64,000 nucleotides of DNA from an uncultured Spirochaetales bacterium (GTDB lineage Bacteria; Spirochaetota; Spirochaetia; Sphaerochaetales; Sphaerochaetaceae): NCBI GenBank assembly GCA_944392695.1, contig CALXXN010000001.1, positions 124,001-188,000 on the forward strand, in the 5' to 3' direction. Positions 3,242 to 49,917 of this stretch are shown piece after piece. Each line of letters begins with the position of its first letter. The stretch's first letter is position 1. The translations under genes and the position numbers were made by a program. The notes under the pieces were generated by a model, which had not been told where the DNA came from, made no database searches, and worked only from the letters and a program-made list of their open reading frames with translations.

Positions 3242-6200
3242 GTGAGCGTATGGACAAGCTGCTATCACTTCTGTCCAGGATAGACCCTGGGCGCAAGTTG
3301 AATGAGGAACAGCTGGCTGCCGTCTTTTCTGACAAGAACACTGTCGTCAGCGCAGGTGCGGGCTCAGGGAAGACAAGCGTGCTGTCTGTGCGCTTCCTCC
3401 GCCTCCTCTTGGAAGGCAAGGCCAAAAGCGATGAGATCCTGACGCTGACCTTCACACGCAAGGCCGCGATGGAGATGGGTGAGCGCATACGCAAGCTTGT
3501 CAGCCTTGCGGGCCCTGAGGTCGGCCAGGAGGACCTCGAACGCCTCTCGAAGGCGGAGATCTCAACTCTGGACTCATTCGCTTCACAGATAGTGCGCATG
3601 GACTGTGTACGCTATGGCATTTCGCGGGATTTCCAGCTTGAGGATGAGATGACGAGGAATGCCAAGGTACGCCGCCTGGCACATGAGTTCCTCGCAGATC
3701 CGGCGAATAAGGCCGAGTGTGCTGTGCTGACACGCTGTTACAGCCCAAGCCAGATCCTCGATTCCTTCTTCGCCCTTGTCGATGAGCGTGTGACCCTCAC
3801 TGGTGACTACGATGCGAAACGCACCGCCCACTGGCTTGACAGCCGTCTTGTCGCAGATCATGCGAAGCTGCGTGGGCAGATGGTGAGGACACTTGGAGAG
3901 TTGATTCCAATAGCAAGCCCAAAGAACAGGGAAAGCGCCATCGTCCATCTTTCGCACATTTGTGAGGATGGTGATGGGGATCTTGAGGATGCATCAAAGG
4001 AATACAAGTTCACCGCATCAGGCAAGAACGAGGAGATGAAGGAACTGGTCAGGGAGTACAAGGAGATGCTCGCCAAGTACCTTGTCTTGAACCGTCATCT
4101 TTCATCAGACCTGCCTTATGACAAGTTGCTTACGGCAATCGAGAAGTTCGCAAACATTTTGAAGCGTGAGAAGCGCCGTAGCTCCGTGCTCTCCTTTGGC
4201 GATGTGGCCAATCTCGCACTTGAGATATTGAGGGAGAATGCAGAGGTACGTACATGGTTCAAAAACCGCTTCAAGGCCATCATGATAGACGAGTTCCAGG
4301 ACAACAACTCGCTCCAGCGTGATATGATGTTCCTCCTTGCAGAGAAGAAGGAACTCTGTTGCACAGGTCGTGTGCCCACAGTGGATGAACTTGAGGATGG
4401 CATGCTCTTCTTCGTCGGAGACGAGAAGCAGAGCATCTACCGCTTCCGAGGTGCTGATGTCTCTGTCTTCCGTGCCCTTCAGGATGAGATCTCCTCCTCA
4501 GGTGGGACGCTGATCCAACTGTCGCATAACTACCGCAGCGCCCCTGGCTTGGTCGCCCATTTCAACTCTGTCTTCGCCAATGTGATGGGCACTGTCACCG
4601 AGGATTACGAGGCACGTTATGAGGAGAGCATCGCAGGGCGTCCCGACAGCCCTTGTTCCATCACACTCATGCTCGCAGACAAGGACACGTTGAAGAGTAG
4701 TGATGAAGACGCGATGCGCCCTGACGAGTGCGAAGCTGAAGAGGTCGCATCCTTGATTGATGAGATGCTATCGACTGACGGTTTCCTGATTGATGGCAGG
4801 CGTCCCACGCCTGCTGATATCGCAGTGCTCTTCCCACGCCGCAGCCACCAGGTCGAGTTCGAGACAGCCTTGAAGCGTCATGGCACACCATATCAGGTGG
4901 CAGTGCCCAAGAGCCTGATGCAGGAGGCCTTGGCTTCTGACTACTACCACCTGATCGAGGCAGCATTGCATCCAGAAGAGGAGTTCTTCCTGCTTTCAAC
5001 ACTGCGTTCTCCCTTTGCAAGGATCAGTGACAAGGGATTGAAAGCCATAGCTCAGGACGGTCTTGATGCCACACTTGATGAGGCTGATGGTGCGAAGCTT
5101 TCAGCCTTCCTCACATTCTTCAATGACTTGAAGGACAGCGTATCCTCGTACAGCATCCCAGCGCTGTTGGACCATATCTACTACGAGGGTGGCTACCATG
5201 CCTTCCTCCAGTCGGACAAATCCTACCGCGGTTATCAGGAACACCATGACTACCTTTTCTCTTATGCTGTGGCCTATCAGGAGGCAGGCCTGGGTGTGAC
5301 GGATTTCCTGTCCTTCATGAGGGAACGTCTCGGAAGCCGTGAGCGGCTTGATGATACCAGCGTGCTCCATGAGAGGAAGGATGGAGTGCAGTTGATGACC
5401 GTGCATGCATCAAAGGGTCTTGAGTTCCCTATCGTCATAGTAGCATCCTGCGGTGGAGCATCGAACAAGGCCATTGAGAGCCGCTACGTCTACATGCATC
5501 GTGGCCGTCTTGTGGCAAGCCTGGACAAGGACCTGCGCTCCTATCTTGAGGACGAGGGCAAGAAGATGGACGAGGCTGAACAGAAGAGGTTGCTTTATGT
5601 CGCCCTCACACGTGCAGAGCGCCATCTTGTAGTCAGTGGGCTGGTCAACCTGACCCAGGCGTTGAATATCACCTGCAACCCCTTCTTCAAGATTTACCTT
5701 GAGGCCATTGGTGTGAGCTTCAATCCACCGGCTTTTCCAAAGGGTGTCACCACAAGGATGATATCCCTCCATGAGCGTACCTTTGATGGCAGGAGGGATG
5801 ATTCCTATCTGACATCTCTAGAGAAGGCGGGGGTGGGGCATCAAGCACCCATTTTCGAGAGTAGGAAGAAGGCCGTAAAGCCAAGTGATATCGAAGAGCT
5901 TTACGATGGTGGAATCGAAGAGCTTCCTGCTTTTGCCTCAGATGCTATATGTAAAAGCAAGGAAGAAAGTGCCGTATTCGGTACTGCTGTTCATGCTTAT
6001 ATTGAACATAGTCTGAAGAATGAAGATATCGAGCCTGCCTTTGCGGACCCGCTTTTCTCTGGCCCTGATGGGCGTACGTTGCGCTCTGATGCCATCAAGA
6101 TGGCTGATAACTTCCTTTCATCGTCTTTCTGGAAGTCTTTGGCCTCGTTCAAGAGGATGAACGAATGGCGCTTCATGGCCCACGACGAGGCTGGTGATTC

Positions 6201-42414: not shown

Positions 42415-44561
42415 TGAGAGATCTCAGATATAGCATGAAGCGTGTCGCTCCAGAGATCGTGCGCCGCTTCTGTGAACGCTACAAGACCGACCTGACCTGT
42501 GCGAACATATTCGCCAGGCGCTCGATAACAGCCCCTGGAGAGGTCCGTTATTATTTGGAGAATGGCCTGAACTGGCTCCATTCCCCCTTCCTCTTCAAGG
42601 ACATGGAGGAGGCGGTCGAGCGCATACTCGCCATCAAGGAGGAGGGTGGGCGCATTGTCATCTTCGGCGACCGTGATGCCGACGGGGTCACATCCTCGGC
42701 CCTGCTTGGGCTGGAGCTTGAGGGTATGGGCCTTGATGTCGTGACCATGCTTCCAGAGGGCGATGAACCATATGGCATATCGATGGACGCTGTGAAACGG
42801 ATTATCGATGTCGGCGCCAGCCTTGTCATCACTGTCGACAACGGGGTGGGGGCGGTTGATGAGGTGGCCGCCTTGAACGATGCGGGCATCGATGTGATCG
42901 TCACCGACCATCATATCGCGGGGGAGGAGCTTCCTGATGCCATCGCAATCATCGACCCAAAGGTGCCTGGCTGTGGCTATCCCTTTGAACACCTCGCAGG
43001 TTGCGGAGTGGCTTCCAAGCTTGTCTGGGCGCTGCGTTTCGCACAGACCCCCTTGTACAAGTCCCATGTCATACTCCTGCATGCCGAGCCTGGACCCGGG
43101 GAGGATACGACTACGATCGTCCAGGCAGTAGAGCTCTACAACCTCGTCGAGACCGACAGGGTCGTCGAAGAACTTCCAAATGGTGCTGTCGACTTCTCAA
43201 GGAGCCGCCTGGTGCGCCTCCTGACGCGAGGCCTCCCCATCATGGTCCTGGACAAGGATGTCGAACTCAGGCAGCTGCGCAAGGCCTTCGGTCCTGGTGT
43301 CGACATAAGCCTTGTCGACATGAGGAAGGAACTTGATGCGGTGATCCCCCGTTCCCGTGGCCGCAGCCTCTTCGAGCTGACGACTGAGAGCAGGGCCGCA
43401 CTCTATGCGGATGGTCATCCTGAGATCGAGGCCTTGCTGAGCCTCTTCACCTCATGTTGCATCTACAAGCACCCATCATTGAGCCGGGACTATGTGAAGA
43501 TGCTGGACCTGGTGGCAATAGGCACGGTCGCCGACATGATGCCGCTTGTTGATGAGAACCGCATACTGGTACGCTTGGGCTTGAAGGAGCTTGGCCGCAT
43601 GTCGAGGCCCTCCCTCATCCAGCTCCTGTCCGCACAGGGCCTTGCCAACCATCCCATAACGGCACATGACATCGCTTGGAACATCTCTCCTGTCATCAAC
43701 TCCGCAGGACGTCTGGGCTGTCCCTCTGTCGCGCTCTCACTCCTCAAGGCCACAGAGCCACAGGATTGTTATGACCTGACCCACAAGCTCCTGGACCTGA
43801 ACAAGGAACGCCAGAGGCTGGGGGACGATGCCTGGCAGGGTGCCCGTGGCAAGGCGAAGGAGTCACTTGAGTCCTTCGGTTCTAAGTTCATCCTCCTTGA
43901 CATCGACACCCCGCGTGGGCTGACAGGGGCCTTGGCGACACGTACGTTGAAGGAGAACCCCCAGGTTCCTGGGGTGGTCGTCCTGTCGGCAGAGGAGGAT
44001 GGACGTGTCAGCGCATCCATGCGTTCCAGGGGCAGCCTCAACTGCCGTGACTTCCTCTCCCTCCTGAAAGACCACATGTTGGATTTCGGAGGTCACAAGT
44101 ATGCAGGTGGTTTCTCGATGTCAGGAGCGTCCAAGGAGGCTTTCAAGGCCGGTCTCGAGGAAGAGGTCATGAAGATGGACTACAGCATCGAGGAAGAGGA
44201 GCTGGCTGTCGATAGCCTGGTCAGCGATGCTGACATGAATCTCAACCTGATCCGCGCAGTGGAACTCTTCGAGCCCTATGGTGAGGCGAACCCTCCCCTG
44301 GCCTTCATGCACAGTGGTGGCAAGGTCGTGGACATCATAACGCTTGGGGATGTCAGCAAGGGGAATATCAAGGTGAATGTGCAGATTGGGAATACTGTCT
44401 GGCCCTGTCTCTGGTGGGGTGCCCGCCTGGACCCTGGCTTCGACATCTCAATCGGTGACCGCCTGACTATGATCTTCAGGATGAACCGCAACTACTACCG
44501 TGGAGTCGGCAATGTCCAGCTGACCATACTCCAGGCAAAGAAGATGGAAGGTGATGCCTGA
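42414..44561 (+). CDS. recJ: Single-stranded-DNA-specific exonuclease RecJ
   Basis: A 715-aa RecJ, the 5'-3' single-strand exonuclease of the RecFOR pathway. The DHH domain includes FGDRDADG (D86, D88, D90), VDNGVG and TDHH (D165 H166 H167). The DHHA1 motif is GGHKYAGGFSM and an OB-fold follows. It is longer than the common 550-580 aa because of an insertion of about 100 residues around 215-325. GGAGG lies seven bases before the ATG at 42414. The TOTE-type helicase gene begins inside its final bases. Confidence 0.93.
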   Translation: MRDLRYSMKRVAPEIVRRFCERYKTDLTCANIFARRSITAPGEVRYYLENGLNWLHSPFLFKDMEEAVERILAIKEEGGRIVIFGDRDADGVTSSALLGLELEGMGLDVVTMLPEGDEPYGISMDAVKRIIDVGASLVITVDNGVGAVDEVAALNDAGIDVIVTDHHIAGEELPDAIAIIDPKVPGCGYPFEHLAGCGVASKLVWALRFAQTPLYKSHVILLHAEPGPGEDTTTIVQAVELYNLVETDRVVEELPNGAVDFSRSRLVRLLTRGLPIMVLDKDVELRQLRKAFGPGVDISLVDMRKELDAVIPRSRGRSLFELTTESRAALYADGHPEIEALLSLFTSCCIYKHPSLSRDYVKMLDLVAIGTVADMMPLVDENRILVRLGLKELGRMSRPSLIQLLSAQGLANHPITAHDIAWNISPVINSAGRLGCPSVALSLLKATEPQDCYDLTHKLLDLNKERQRLGDDAWQGARGKAKESLESFGSKFILLDIDTPRGLTGALATRTLKENPQVPGVVVLSAEEDGRVSASMRSRGSLNCRDFLSLLKDHMLDFGGHKYAGGFSMSGASKEAFKAGLEEEVMKMDYSIEEEELAVDSLVSDADMNLNLIRAVELFEPYGEANPPLAFMHSGGKVVDIITLGDVSKGNIKVNVQIGNTVWPCLWWGARLDPGFDISIGDRLTMIFRMNRNYYRGVGNVQLTILQAKKMEGDA

Positions 44562-47500
44562 GCCTGTACGCTTTGTAGACAGCATGACGCTTGTCGGAGG
44601 ACAAGATGGGCAGATGTCGCCTTCGGAACTCCAAGTTGCCATCAAAAGCATCGATGAGCAGCTAGATGAGCTGATTGCGAAAACCGAGGCCCTCAAGGAG
44701 GAGAGGGCCGTATTGGCCGCACAGCTTGAAGCGCAATCAAAGCGATACAGTATTCCTCCATTGGAACTCGGAACATCTCGTATCAGTGAATATGCATCAT
44801 TGGAGGAACAGGCAGGGTTCCTCATTGATTTATTCTCACCAAGACGTGATGTCCATGCTGTGAGGCGGATATATTACTCAAGTAAGAAGGATGCATGGTG
44901 TACTTCGTACTATCCACCATGTGAAAACTACAAAAGGCGTGGGTGTGCGAAGGCTGTTTCACTTGGGGCTAGGACGATTAGTGATGCTTCTCCATGCTCG
45001 AAATGCACGATGAAGGCCTATCAACCACTTGATGTGGACAAAATCATCAACAAGCATCTTGAGAACACTGATAATGATGGTGTGGGGGCCATAGGCATTT
45101 ATCCATTGAAGGATGGTAATCTGACCCGCTTCATCCTGATCGACCTTGATGAGAAGAACTGGGAAAAGGACGCCAGGGCCATATTGCATACTGCGAGGAA
45201 CATGGGTGTCAGCATGGCCTGGGAGCGTAGTTTCAGTGGTCGAGGTGCTCATTTGTGGGTTTTCTTCAGTGAGGATGTACCTGTTGCCGAGGCAAGACGG
45301 CTCATGTTCATCATCATAGACAAGGCGCGGGAGTCACACTCTGGACTCAGCATTTCTTCTTATGACCGCTTGATCCCGTCTCAGGATGGTTTGGTGAATG
45401 GAGGAATCGGGTCATTGGTCCTCATGCCATTTGTCCTGTCAGCCGCAGGCCGTTCTTGTACAGTCTTCCTCGATGATAACGGTGTTGCTTATCCGCTTTA
45501 CCGGCAGTTTCCGTACCTTTCATCTGTACACAGACATGACGCTGTAGAGCTTAAGCGCTTGATTGCCACAAATGAAAACAAGATTGGATTCAAATTGGAA
45601 GCACTCGACAAGGACATGCTTAATCCAAGTTGGGCCAAGCGTCTACCAAAGCTTACAAAGGAGGATGTGAAGGCCCCTGTGGTGCTTTATCTGTCAACAG
45701 GAGTGAGTGTTGATAAGAAGGCCTTGTCCGAGAAGGCCATCGAAGGTTTGCGCCGTCTTGCCTTGGTATCCAATCCAGAGCACTACAAAGAACTTGCACG
45801 CATGGATGGCCGTGCCCATACTCCTGCTTGCATTCCTGTAAGTCGGGAAAACCACAGGGTGTTATGCCTGCCAAGAGCCCTGCGCCCTGTTATGGAAGCT
45901 TATTTGTCTGCTTCCGGAATACCGTATACGATTGAGGATCACCGCCATACAACAAGAGGACTTGATGCTACTTTCAAGGCGGTCCTCCGCAAAGACCAGG
46001 TCCTTGCTTTTGATGCCATGATGGATAATGAAATCGGGGTACTTGCCTTGCCTCCTGGTTCTGGTAAGACAGTCATAGCCCTTGCGATTGCTGCAGCAAG
46101 GGCCGAAGCAACACTGGTCATAACTCCTTCAGACTTGGTTCCCCAGTGGAAAGAACGGGCTGTCGAGATGCTTGAAATCCACAATCAGCCAAGCCTTGGT
46201 AAGTGGAAACGCAAGAGTGGATCCTATCCAGTTGGGGAGTTCGTGGGGTCTAAGAAACATCTTTATGGTGTTTTCGATATCGCAAGCATTGAGACGCTTG
46301 CAAGCAGGGTGAAGGATGGCAAGGACCTTGAACTACCATCCTATGGCCTTGTCATTGTCGACGAATGCCATGGCATCGCTGCAAGCAACTTCCGCAATGT
46401 GATGTCAGTGCTCAATTCGAAATATGTATATGGCCTGACAGCCACTGTAAAACGTGCAGATGGGCTTGAACGACTGATGCATGTTGAGATTGGCCCTGTT
46501 GTCTACTCTATGGAAAGTGCAGCACTTGCAAGAGAGAGGGGTATCATGCAGTACTTCGTACCTCATTATCTTGAAACAGCCCCTCCAGGTAAATCTGGTC
46601 ACATACGCTTCTCGGAACTCTTGAACCAACTTGCGGAAGATTGGACAAGAAATGCACAGATTGCCGATGATATTGCAGAGGCCTACCACGATGGACGGAA
46701 CATCATCGTCTTCACAAGACGAGTGAAGCAGAACAATGCCATAGCGCAATGCCTTGATGCCCGTCTTATTCCATGTATCGTGATGGAGTCTGGGATGAGA
46801 GACTCGGAAAGGGCAGGATTGCTGGATGATGTCAGACGCAAGGAACATGCTCCTGTAATCATCGCAACAGACCAGCTATTGGGAGAAGGAGTGGACATTC
46901 CCAATATGGACACCCTTTTCCTGGCTTCTCCTTATATGCAGGAACGGGTCATGGTCCAGTGTGCTGGTCGTATTGCCAGGCAATGGGAAGGGAAGCAGGA
47001 GACCAGGATTCATGATTATGTCGACTTCCTCATTCCTTGTATGGATCATATGTTCTCGAGGCGTGTAAGGGAATACAGGCGCATGGGGTATATTGAGAAA
47101 GGTGGAGTAGGGCGGCCTTCTGTCAGGCAGCTTTATCATGAGGATGATTTCATAGAGTGTCTTATAGCTGATTTATCAAAAGCGATTTCCTCAATAGTGA
47201 TTTCATCACCTTTCCCCGTTGCATCAAAGTCCTCTGCGCGGATTCTTGAAAGTGCCGTTGAGGCGATGGAACGTGGTGTCGAATTCGAACTCCGTTTGTC
47301 ATACTCGCGATTAAGCGAAGCAGCGGCCGCCCGTACCAAGGCTCTTTTACTGCGATTGGGTATCAAGGCAGTCGAATTGGAACATGCCCTTGCTTTCGTG
47401 GTGATTGATGAGAGCATAAGCTGGTATGGGGAACTTGATGTCATGAGCCTAAGTCAGAAAAATACCGCAACAGCAGTGCATGGTGGTGTCCTCAGAATAG

Positions 47501-47562
47501 TTGACAACCGCCCCGCTAAGGCATTGCTGGAAGATGATAATCTCCTTGTGAGAGGCTGCTGA
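44554..47562 (+). CDS. TOTE-type primase-SF2 helicase with C-terminal PLD-like domain
   Basis: A 1002-aa protein. Residues ~25-65 are a coiled coil. An archaeo-eukaryotic primase-like domain of the TOTE conflict-system type follows: YYPPCENYKRRGCAKA, a CSKC pair, D197 and D199 in LIDLDEK, H233 in FSGRGAHLW, and YDRLIPSQDGLVNGGIGSLV. An SF2 helicase comes next, with PPGSGKT near 499-505, DECH at 603-606, GLTATVKR, and QCAGRIARQ near 800. The C-terminus resembles a phospholipase-D nuclease, but the HKD-type motif has become LAFVVIDESISWYGELDV, lacking the catalytic His and Lys. TOTE proteins are linked to mobile-element conflict; the exact role is unknown. It overlaps recJ by eight bases. ATG 44614, after GGAGG, is an alternative start. 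The sequence is AT-richer than recJ, suggesting transfer. Confidence 0.8.
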   Translation: MPEPVRFVDSMTLVGGQDGQMSPSELQVAIKSIDEQLDELIAKTEALKEERAVLAAQLEAQSKRYSIPPLELGTSRISEYASLEEQAGFLIDLFSPRRDVHAVRRIYYSSKKDAWCTSYYPPCENYKRRGCAKAVSLGARTISDASPCSKCTMKAYQPLDVDKIINKHLENTDNDGVGAIGIYPLKDGNLTRFILIDLDEKNWEKDARAILHTARNMGVSMAWERSFSGRGAHLWVFFSEDVPVAEARRLMFIIIDKARESHSGLSISSYDRLIPSQDGLVNGGIGSLVLMPFVLSAAGRSCTVFLDDNGVAYPLYRQFPYLSSVHRHDAVELKRLIATNENKIGFKLEALDKDMLNPSWAKRLPKLTKEDVKAPVVLYLSTGVSVDKKALSEKAIEGLRRLALVSNPEHYKELARMDGRAHTPACIPVSRENHRVLCLPRALRPVMEAYLSASGIPYTIEDHRHTTRGLDATFKAVLRKDQVLAFDAMMDNEIGVLALPPGSGKTVIALAIAAARAEATLVITPSDLVPQWKERAVEMLEIHNQPSLGKWKRKSGSYPVGEFVGSKKHLYGVFDIASIETLASRVKDGKDLELPSYGLVIVDECHGIAASNFRNVMSVLNSKYVYGLTATVKRADGLERLMHVEIGPVVYSMESAALARERGIMQYFVPHYLETAPPGKSGHIRFSELLNQLAEDWTRNAQIADDIAEAYHDGRNIIVFTRRVKQNNAIAQCLDARLIPCIVMESGMRDSERAGLLDDVRRKEHAPVIIATDQLLGEGVDIPNMDTLFLASPYMQERVMVQCAGRIARQWEGKQETRIHDYVDFLIPCMDHMFSRRVREYRRMGYIEKGGVGRPSVRQLYHEDDFIECLIADLSKAISSIVISSPFPVASKSSARILESAVEAMERGVEFELRLSYSRLSEAAAARTKALLLRLGIKAVELEHALAFVVIDESISWYGELDVMSLSQKNTATAVHGGVLRIVDNRPAKALLEDDNLLVRGC

Positions 47563-47783
47563 GGATGATTGCAGGGTTGCAGGAAGTGATTCAATGACAT
47601 GGATTTCCTACGGGATGTGTTGACAGTGGCTTTATCCATCTACGTGTCCTGGCATTCCATTGAATTTGAGCTAGATGTAGCAGACAGAAGTCCCTCCTGC
47701 CCATGGATTCCTATATACATTAGGATGTCCTGCTGTTACACTGTATCCAATAGGTGGGAATACGATGATGCGTAGGAGAGGGC

Positions 47784-48611
47784 ATGGATATCATCAAGCA
47801 GAAAGGCTTGAGCCTGAGCGACGCCGATAGGTGTAAACTTGACAGCTTCATAGAAGCGAACTGTAGCGCATATTACATAGTCGATTTCCTAAGGATCACT
47901 TCTGGTAATGTTGATGACGCTATCTCCCTGTACTTCCTTGACGAGGACCTACGGGCTGTGGTTTTGAAATACATCCTCCGGTTGGAGGTCCAGATGAAGA
48001 AGGACTTCATAAATTGTGTGTTTGAAGAAACCAATGACGAAAGTTTTTGGAACAACAGAACATACTACACAAGTCAATTCGTCAAAGCGAAAAAAGGAGT
48101 TGATAGAAGTCAGTTTGATATCGCGGTCACGGAAGTCAATGCCAGAATGCGTGTCATGCAGTTTTCAATCGCAAGTGATAGGAACCATCAGGCCTTCTAT
48201 GCGATGTCTCTCGGAACATTTTCAAAGCTGTATTCTGGAATGTTCTTGAGGTACCATTTCGACTTCACTTCGAAGTACTCATTTCGGAATCCTTGTTCTG
48301 TAGATGTGTTGCGTCGTTACTTTGATACAGTCCGTATAATCCGTAATCGTTGTTGTCATAGCAATCATATGATTTCAGCGAAATTGAAGAATGCGTTGAT
48401 TTTCAATGTTTCTGTATTGCCTGGTTATTTTGGAGATACTGGGAATGAGTTTGAGAAAACACTGTACTTCATTTATTCCCGCTTGGATAACAAGGAGTCA
48501 TTCAAAGACGATGTTATCGGACTATTGAAGGAGAATACTTCATGCTGGCGCCCATATTGCAACAAGCACCTGTTACATCCTGCATTTGCGGAAGATATCG
48601 ATATATGGTGA
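47784..48611 (+). CDS. Abi-family (AbiD/F-like, HEPN-type) protein
   Basis: A 275-aa protein similar in layout to the Abi_2 family of abortive-infection proteins. It opens like that family (KGLSLSDADRCKLDSFIEANCSAYYIVDFLR) and carries RNRCCH at residues 187-192, the R-x4-H signature of HEPN RNases, in the usual place (IIRNRCCHSNHMI). If active it would cut RNA and stop growth after phage infection. AGGAG lies six bases before the ATG. It follows the TOTE-type gene after 221 bp, is strongly AT-rich, and was probably acquired horizontally. The Abi assignment rests on motif position rather than overall similarity. Confidence 0.7.
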   Translation: MDIIKQKGLSLSDADRCKLDSFIEANCSAYYIVDFLRITSGNVDDAISLYFLDEDLRAVVLKYILRLEVQMKKDFINCVFEETNDESFWNNRTYYTSQFVKAKKGVDRSQFDIAVTEVNARMRVMQFSIASDRNHQAFYAMSLGTFSKLYSGMFLRYHFDFTSKYSFRNPCSVDVLRRYFDTVRIIRNRCCHSNHMISAKLKNALIFNVSVLPGYFGDTGNEFEKTLYFIYSRLDNKESFKDDVIGLLKENTSCWRPYCNKHLLHPAFAEDIDIW

Positions 48612-48639
48612 AAAAGATAATGTCTATTTCACTTTCCCA

Positions 48640-48668
48640 TTGACAAGTTGTTTTTTACAAACTAGATT
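48640..48668 (+). promoter_or_regulatory. Near-consensus promoter in the Abi-hydrolase gap
   Basis: A perfect TTGACA, 17 bp, and TAGATT. The -10 lies in the first copy of a direct repeat ACTAGAT (48661-48667 and 48672-48678). Confidence 0.6.
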
Positions 48669-48674
48669 TGTACT

Positions 48675-48732
48675 AGATGGTGGGGACGATAGATGCCCCC
48701 AGCCGCCGGCCCGTGGAGTCGGCTTTTCTTTT
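48675..48732 (+). ncRNA. Candidate small RNA of about 58 nt with terminal hairpin
   Basis: A near-consensus promoter ends at 48668, so transcription should begin near 48675. TGGGG (48681-48685) can pair with CCCCA (48697-48701), and AGCCG (48701-48705) pairs with CGGCT (48720-48724) directly before TTTTCTTTT. There is no open frame of note inside. The second hairpin may simply terminate the upstream Abi gene, but that would not explain the promoter. The family was not recognised. Confidence 0.4.
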
Positions 48733-48797
48733 ATCCGCCATATGTTTTGATTGTTCCATTTCCCGTGCTATGATGAAGCTACACAGAGGAGGCGCAT

Positions 48798-49352
48798 ATG
48801 AAGAAGGCGGTATTCTTCCCCGGTACTGGTTACACCTGCAAGGAGGACCTCTTCCAGCGCATTGGACAGGAATTGGGACAAGCAGGCTGGTCTGTCGTTC
48901 CACTTGATTGGCAGGCCATCCCTTTCAAAGCCATTGATACAATCACTGAAGCCTGCGACATGGCTGTAGGTTTTGCCATATGCGCTTTGGAAGGTGAGGG
49001 GCTTGAGGACTGCGATGATCTCCTCTTCGTCTCCAAGAGCCTTGGTTGCATAAGCGCATTGGAATACAGCCAGCTCCTTGGTCTTGAAGCACGTCATGTG
49101 CTGCTGACACCGACCCCGGATGCCCTTGCTTTGGTCAAGACATCAACTGAAGTGGCCTGTGCTGTCATTGGAGATGAAGATCCTTTGATGGATAGTTCCT
49201 CATTGGTCTCTTTTGGTGAGGAGCATGGCTTCCCTGTATTCGTGGTGAAGGGATCGGGGCATGCGTTGAAGCATGAGGACCCCGCGATAACTGAATCCAT
49301 CACTTCAAGGGTTGTTTCATTTGCAAGCAAGGAACTTGGCCTTCATGCTTGA
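48798..49352 (+). CDS. Small alpha/beta-hydrolase-fold protein
   Basis: A 184-aa protein with a minimal alpha/beta-hydrolase layout: AVFFPGTGYTCKEDLF as first strand and oxyanion loop, LLFVSKSLGC with the nucleophile serine in an S-x-S-x-G elbow, GDEDPLMD with the acid, and VVKGSGHALKHED with the histidine. It lacks a lid domain. Similar small hydrolases are often annotated as esterases or left unnamed. GAGGAGG precedes the ATG. It lies after the candidate small RNA and terminator hairpin, so it is probably transcribed separately from the Abi gene; a link to defence is only positional. Confidence 0.75.
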   Translation: MKKAVFFPGTGYTCKEDLFQRIGQELGQAGWSVVPLDWQAIPFKAIDTITEACDMAVGFAICALEGEGLEDCDDLLFVSKSLGCISALEYSQLLGLEARHVLLTPTPDALALVKTSTEVACAVIGDEDPLMDSSSLVSFGEEHGFPVFVVKGSGHALKHEDPAITESITSRVVSFASKELGLHA

Positions 49353-49917
49353 TGATGCAATGGGCCTGCCTGGGGTTATGTGAGGAATGGTAAGTGCATG
49401 ATTGCCTGTGATTGACAGGGTTGCGAAGATGGTGCCTTGAAAACGGTTTTCGGAAGATTCAGTGGTGAAAACCACTAAAGTCTTCAAAGCCTGGAGTTCA
49501 CTTTCATTTCAATCATCAGGGACCTCATTTCATGATTCCATGTGGAGTATGCCAACGAAACAGGACTCAGGAACGAAGGCATTCGCGCAGTATGCAGTTG
49601 CAAGGTCATCTGGAGCGTGTCCAGATGTTTCCGTCATGCTATCGTCTTCGACATGTCCGCAACAATATCATCGGCCCTCAACGCTTGAGTGAAGACCGGC
49701 ATCGATAATGACGAGATACCTGATGGGATATGCGTCGGCATTTCCAATGTCTTGCTCAGGGAGGCTTTGGCTTGGCCATGCTCAGCCCGAGACCGAGGTG
49801 AGGCGAATATCAAGTAAAAGTGTTGCCCCCCCCATGAAAAGTGCTAGGGTCTTATTAGTGGTAGGGATAGATGGATTTCTTACATTTTAATCTCTACCCT
49901 GAGTTTTGGAGGTTAAA
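49353..49917. other. 565-bp stretch without a confident gene
   Basis: Short minus-strand frames between about 49530 and 49800 have plausible codon use (one ends in LRADDIVADMSKTIA, another reads TSGHAPDDLATAY in the next frame). They look like a decayed gene, but I recognise no family. A 6-bp stem with a GAAA loop lies at 49461-49476 (AGTGGT-GAAA-ACCACT). Near the right end is the C8 tract and probable promoter of the GLUG lipoprotein gene. Confidence 0.4.
49826..49833. repeat. Poly-C tract (C8) in a lipoprotein promoter region
   Basis: Eight consecutive C residues lie 84 bp upstream of the GLUG lipoprotein start. A possible promoter TTGCCC (49823-49828), 16 bp, TAGGGT (49845-49850) would include the tract in its -35 and spacer, so slippage would change the spacing. 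Confidence 0.45.

Follow-up and report, generated by a model that had tools for sequence, protein, structure and literature searches.

Between the Abi_2 gene and the next gene in the stretch of DNA analysed here (64,000 nucleotides, referred to below as the window), a short interval at 48640-48732 had been singled out in a preliminary description as a candidate small RNA gene, possibly an RNA antitoxin. The questions were whether this interval encoded a conserved RNA, with which of the two neighboring genes the RNA belonged, and what such an RNA might do.

Architecture and conservation of the probable small RNA gene

As had been described, the interval contained TTGACA, a 17-bp spacer, TAGATT, two stems and a terminal run: sequence inspection and a motif scan recovered the promoter, both hairpins and the U-run within 48640-48732. 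The sigma-70-type promoter (48640-48668, + strand) agreed with the consensus at 10 of 12 positions, its -35 hexamer TTGACA occupying 48640-48645 and its -10 hexamer TAGATT 48663-48668. Judging from the sequence, the 5' end of the RNA was probably at AGAUGG, 6 nt past the -10. The small RNA itself (about 55 nt, 48675-48732, + strand) was delineated by alignments and by a covariance model, R1, which scored the window copy at 77.6 bits, this copy being one of the three model-building sequences. Hairpin 1 (48679-48704, + strand) had nine pairs, and the sequence CGAUAGA at and around its loop (48687-48693) was invariant in all seven RNA copies. The intrinsic terminator (48705-48732, + strand), namely a hairpin at 48705-48723 and then TTTTCTTTT at 48724-48732, was kept in six of the seven copies and lost in one (L041).

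Neither kind of signal exceeded chance when taken alone. Between 46500 and 50500 there were 7 promoter-like sites against 6.3 in shuffled sequences, and 5 terminator-like sites against 2.7. The combination of a promoter of at least 10/12 with a terminator starting 10-80 nt past the -10 occurred at one place in the 64 kb, and 20 dinucleotide-shuffled versions of the window together gave a single one; thus, the pairing of the two signals at 48640-48732 exceeded chance. The folding energy of the window copy alone, which is GC-rich, was unremarkable (z about -0.2), and the three other copies that were folded were far more stable than their own shuffles (z from -3.4 to -4.7).

Two details of the preliminary description had to be revised. 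It had stated that no open frame was present, and we found three mechanical open reading frames crossing the stretch (48586-48750 and 48677-48907 on the + strand, 48673-48903 on the - strand). The stretch was nevertheless probably non-coding, since single-base insertions and deletions between copies inside the RNA speak against coding. The direct repeat ACTAGAT, said to overlap the -10 and the start, was not conserved in relatives and looked like a product of chance.

Against the three other copies found behind Abi_2 genes (see below), the window RNA was 80.0-83.6% identical and was better conserved than the Abi_2 coding DNA of the same loci (58.2-64.5%). The spacers between gene and RNA (15-24%) and the 100 nt 3' of the RNA (28-42%) had no clear similarity, and the 43 nt 5' of the RNA were 49-54% identical, the two promoter hexamers aside. 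The predicted pairs were kept in every copy that had letters there (70 of 70 cells, five distinct sequences). In hairpin 1, all nine pairs were kept in five distinct sequences, two of them with changes in both partners and two with a change in one partner. When the pairing was slid by 1-3 columns, the paired cells fell from 100% to 19-52%. Covariation was weak, as 56 of 500 column shuffles reached it and the alignment had been fitted to the structure. On this sequence evidence, it was very likely that the small RNA was a real, conserved small-RNA gene.

The Abi_2 gene and its linkage to the RNA

The gene upstream of the RNA (47784-48611, + strand) was intact in the window and encoded a putative toxin of 275 aa, an Abi_2 protein of the AbiD/AbiF type with a HEPN motif. 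It matched PF07751 (Abi_2) at E 2.1e-14 (54.7 bits against a curated cut-off of 25.6), the PADLOC AbiD model at E 5e-15 and a PHROG abortive infection protein at E 1.8e-8. The HEPN RNase motif R187-N-R-C-C-H192 (codons 48342-48359, + strand) was identical in all four aligned sequences, the window included. This RNRCCH agreed with the R-polar-xxx-H catalytic motif of AbiF/AbiD HEPN RNases, and it fitted the motif described for AbiFCd, RNQCAH (PMC12373285). The protein had a weak sequence match to the PbAbiF structure 8VZ6 (E 0.38), and its predicted structure, made from a two-sequence alignment, had a mean pLDDT of 42. Directly upstream, at 44551-47562, was a gene for a 1003-aa TOTE-type primase-helicase (AEP-TOTE, E 7.8e-50). 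Since it adjoined the Abi_2 gene, this part of the window may form a small cluster of defence genes.

At E <= 0.001 the Abi_2 protein was found in 1 of 16 genomes of the genus, the window's own, and at E <= 0.01 in 10 of 139 genomes of the family. The latter were its own genome, three genomes with close relatives (G357, G422 and G426; 54-65% identity) and six with weak matches that covered the protein in part at 23-39% identity. A sample of 392 genomes from the phylum gave 6 matches, and only G357 was close besides the window's own. No relatives were found by a protein scan of viral_contigs, nor in plasmid and phage records at E 1e-5.

Among the 139 family genomes, the RNA was present in all four that had the Abi_2 protein or a close relative, the window's own included. 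At each of these loci it was located downstream of the Abi_2 gene on the same strand, at a distance from the stop codon of 63 nt in the window, 108 nt in G357 (locus L025, CASFDW010000006.1, an uncultured Spirochaetales bacterium), 101 nt in G422 (locus L037) and 50 nt in G426 (locus L026, CALXXO010000063.1, an uncultured Spirochaetaceae MAG). All four copies had TTGACA, a 17-nt spacer and a -10 (TAGATT in the window, L037 and L026, TAAATT in L025) that ended 6 nt before AGAUGG; then came hairpin 1 with CGAUAGA, AGCCGCCG, the terminator with GAGUCGGC and a U-rich run.

The RNA had first been spotted by eye downstream of Abi_2 in G357 and then in L026, and the copies were later aligned; R1 was built from the window, L025 and L026 copies. 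Three of the four linked copies had thus gone into the model, and two had come to light through inspection of the DNA beside the protein gene. For that reason the per-genome probability of the linkage, 2.4e-6, was partly circular; it was also inflated by kinship and should carry no weight. The copy behind the Abi_2 gene of G422 was not in the model and was found by a genome-wide R1 search, which made it an independent confirmation of the linkage. Thus, all four genes of this Abi_2 clade had a small structured RNA next to the putative toxin gene, conserved as a pair, and the covariance search that the preliminary description had called for supported its proposal of a small RNA gene next to a gene of the HEPN/Abi kind.

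Further evidence came from L026, where the Abi_2 gene and the RNA were inside an insert of about 1.0 kb between two 166-bp direct repeats that were 94% identical (L026:2778-2943 and 3959-4124). The repeat was matched in 7 of 48 genomes of the genus to which the L026 genome belongs, twice in G426 and once in each of six others. In the three of these six that were examined (G432, G264 and G418), there was one repeat copy with contiguous flanks, and the insert was absent. Only the Abi_2 gene and the RNA were recognised inside the insert, which was direct evidence that they had moved together or had been duplicated in together. The Abi_2 gene of L026 was broken by one stop and one frame break, possibly through an assembly error. 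The insert had no recognised recombinase, yet it was flanked by a long duplication of 166 bp; by eye, a short inverted repeat, ACAACG...CGTTGT, was noticed at its downstream end.

Because all four Abi_2 loci had the RNA and the two shared the L026 insert, the sequence comparison indicates that the RNA belongs with the Abi gene and not with the gene on its other side. The latter, a 184-aa gene called a hydrolase in the preliminary description, was matched by no Pfam, PADLOC or NCBIfam model. Relatives of this gene occurred in 8 other genomes of the genus, none of which had the RNA above 20 bits, and on this ground we rejected the attribution of the RNA to the hydrolase. A promoter-like site before the hydrolase gene (48747-48774, + strand; TTGATT-16-TATGAT with TG before the -10) was not part of the RNA, and its score of 9/12 was at the level expected by chance. 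Immediately ahead of the hydrolase start, a 43-nt segment (48755-48797) had an 86% match in G002, and by eye the sequence further out differed between the two genomes; this segment may be a variable insertion point.

Solitary copies of the RNA and other Abi_2 loci

The R1 scan of the 139 family genomes gave matches in 25 at E <= 0.05, and 7 of these exceeded 40 bits. We retained these seven matches as RNA copies and dropped those of 24 bits and below; the alignments of the two best dropped matches (L042 and L043) were mostly terminator-like. A scan of the class gave matches in 15 of 394 genomes at E <= 1e-4, of which 5 exceeded 40 bits, all already known, and the remaining matches were all below 28 bits. 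No RNA above 20 bits was found in the 15 other genomes of the genus, and the RNA pattern had no match in viral_contigs.

Three of the seven copies, found independently by the search, had no close Abi_2 relative beside them. The L041 copy was behind a SLFN_AlbA_2/HATPase_c_4 gene. The L035 copy was behind a gene related to the L041 neighbor, with 84% DNA identity over 580 nt including the RNA start, and this neighbor gene looked broken by eye. The L040 copy was behind a DUF3800 gene, and some 290 nt further on there were pieces of another Abi_2 gene, which was broken; in the same genome (G347) we observed the Rfam DUF3800-XI RNA (L072:722-770, - strand). Two of the three genomes with solitary copies, G436 and G347, had other Abi_2 genes elsewhere, and the third, G241, had no Abi_2 at E <= 0.01. 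Moreover, L025, L035 and L040 shared about 30 nt past the terminator. These three copies could be relics or stand-alone antitoxins, or they may have some other partner. Since they made up three of the seven and two of their genomes had other Abi_2 genes, the partner of the RNA may be less specific than proposed, and this is the main weakness of the RNA antitoxin reading.

Other Abi_2 genes were also inspected for adjacent promoter-terminator units. Among nine such loci (eleven minus L061, which had no frame, and L073, which by eye was another gene), a unit within 350 nt was found in one, upstream of the gene, and downstream in none. In this locus, L007, a promoter scoring 11/12, with a hairpin and a T-run after it, was located some 100 nt ahead of the frame of a distant Abi_2 gene; this may be an RNA partner of another kind.

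Known systems and alternative explanations

The closest described systems were AbiF-RCd22 of C. difficile and AbiF-AbiFr (PbAbiF, PDB 8VZ6), which likewise combine an Abi_2 protein carrying a HEPN RNase motif with an adjacent small hairpin RNA, a sigma-70/SigA-type promoter and a terminator. PMC12373285 reports binding of RCd22 to AbiFCd, neutralisation of the toxin in trans and dependence on the hairpin stems of the RNA; the HEPN residues R202 and H207 of AbiFCd are needed for toxicity, which the mutants lose. A review (PMC12737573) describes one AbiFr RNA bound per PbAbiF monomer in 8VZ6. RCd22 precedes the toxin gene, which is reached by read-through from a promoter common to both (PMC12373285), whereas the present RNA was downstream, with a promoter to itself.

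Two abiF motifs (Rfam RF03085) occur in RCd22, and the present RNA matched none. RF03085 (cut-off 37 bits) did not match the window, nor, with the E limit raised to 10, 47500-48850, 48640-48740 or the L003 copy of the RNA. It was likewise absent from the window's own genome under stricter filters and, at E <= 1, from 12 other Abi_2-related loci, so that its absence here was not special in itself. RF03085 has another consensus and structure than the present RNA. Among 385 sampled genomes of the phylum, it was found in 8 at E <= 0.001 (L027-L034), 5 of them over the cut-off. It was upstream of Abi_2 in three of these loci (L028 and L031 by Pfam, L030 by eye), in contrast to the downstream position of the present RNA in four of four, and at 5 of the 8 no Abi_2 gene was recognised by eye in the DNA inspected. 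Thus, the identity of the RNA with abiF RNA was ruled out by its different sequence and its place on the other side of the gene. Both RNAs were seen next to Abi_2 genes and, it seems, in places lacking such a gene, so that solitary abiF RNAs may exist too. As for other Rfam families, none reached its gathering score in the window. A permissive scan of a 1.35-kb stretch gave four chance-level matches, none overlapping the RNA; 48640-48740 scanned by itself gave none, and the L003 copy gave eight matches, all far below gathering scores.

The proposed arrangement, an RNA antitoxin beside an RNase toxin, resembles type III toxin-antitoxin systems (ToxIN, CptIN, TenpIN). In those systems the toxin is of the ToxN type rather than HEPN, and the gene order is opposite to that of the present locus. 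ToxIN-type RNA antitoxins consist of tandem repeats, whereas the present RNA had one hairpin unit and a terminator. Rfam DUF3800-associated RNAs (e.g., RF02975) are also small RNAs linked to a conflict-type gene; none of their models matched the present RNA, one solitary copy of which was behind a DUF3800 gene. In searches of a paper library, no title or abstract opening reported a downstream Abi_2 RNA or the present RNA. Covariance models of AbiF by Zilberzwige-Tal et al. are mentioned in PMC12804078, so the RNA may already fall within the AbiF models.

Another explanation takes the stretch for no more than the place where the Abi mRNA terminates, or for a leader that belongs to the hydrolase gene. 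The former alternative had been named in the preliminary description. The terminator of the small RNA was the only terminator-like site on the + strand between 46500 and 50500, and for this reason the Abi mRNA probably ends there. An mRNA end would not account for a promoter, a fixed distance from the -10 to AGAUGG and a hairpin 1 that were kept across four loci with dissimilar spacers, and the hydrolase relatives lacking the RNA argue against a leader; we regard this explanation as very improbable. Even less credit is due to a trans-acting antisense RNA that pairs with the Abi mRNA as in type I systems, although a small, structured RNA adjoining a putative toxin gene would suit it. The RNA was on the same strand as the Abi_2 gene, and 84-90% of 200 shuffled RNAs paired at least as well with the mRNA region from -80 to +40 at each of the four loci. 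Pairing with the Abi mRNA, which the preliminary description had suggested checking, was accordingly rejected for the start region.

The solitary copies invite yet another explanation: a small RNA of the host, or one that moves independently, could often come to sit by Abi_2 genes or serve several kinds of neighbor, with no specific tie to this protein. Their positions behind SLFN_AlbA_2/HATPase_c_4, related and DUF3800 genes, the 30 nt shared past the terminator and the other Abi_2 genes in two of the three genomes would agree with this. Against it, every gene of this Abi_2 clade had the RNA in one orientation and within 110 nt, and the broken-looking neighbor of L035 and the missing terminator of L041 were as expected of relics; we consider a mobile RNA of this kind unlikely. 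It was also quite unlikely, in our judgement, that the RNA serves as a co-factor or guide-like partner needed for the activity of the HEPN protein in a ribonucleoprotein effector. AbiF is held to be a Cas13 precursor and is credited with cleavage and processing of its own RNA partner (PMC12737573), and the 5' AGAU and CGAUAGA were invariant in the RNA copies. However, the AbiF RNAs described in PMC12373285 and PMC12737573 neutralise their proteins, the copy alignment had no evident variable guide-like stretch, and there was no array of spaced direct repeats at 46500-49800.

Proposed mode of action and its meaning

We favor an antitoxin that acts by binding the Abi_2 toxin protein, and by analogy with AbiF this is the probable, if by no means certain, role of the RNA. 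The HEPN motif, the conserved hairpin RNA partner, the lack of outstanding pairing with the mRNA start and the AbiF precedent all point to it. Of the original antitoxin proposal, the linkage of RNA and Abi gene was supported by the sequences, and the antitoxin role fits what PMC12373285 reports for AbiF.

The locus would then be a two-part cassette, in which a gene for an Abi_2/HEPN ribonuclease-type toxin (47784-48611) is followed by a small structured RNA (48675-48732). We infer that transcription of the RNA would begin at a promoter of its own and stop at its terminator, and that the RNA would fold into hairpin 1, with CGAUAGA at and around the loop, and the terminator hairpin. Its target would be the Abi protein, presumably a HEPN dimer, which it would bind and neutralise by blocking or occupying the RNase site, as modelled on AbiFr for PbAbiF and RCd22 for AbiFCd. 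If the RNA were lost, diluted or displaced, for example on phage takeover, the protein would be freed, would cut RNA, and growth would stop.

A broader proposal, which we put forward as doubtful but worth stating, is that a divergent HEPN Abi_2 clade with a downstream, own-promoter RNA unlike abiF constitutes a distinct RNA-antitoxin family, and that the RNA also spreads or survives by itself in solitary copies, which protect their hosts from an incoming cassette. An Abi_2 clade with a different RNA, encoded from its own promoter and located on the other side of the gene, would suggest that the pairing of toxin and RNA had been rearranged or had arisen more than once, and the solitary copies would offer an opening onto antitoxin-only protection. 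Cas13 is proposed to descend from HEPN toxins of the AbiF type that have RNA partners, and a compact system of about 1.0 kb may help to reveal how such RNAs recognise HEPN proteins.
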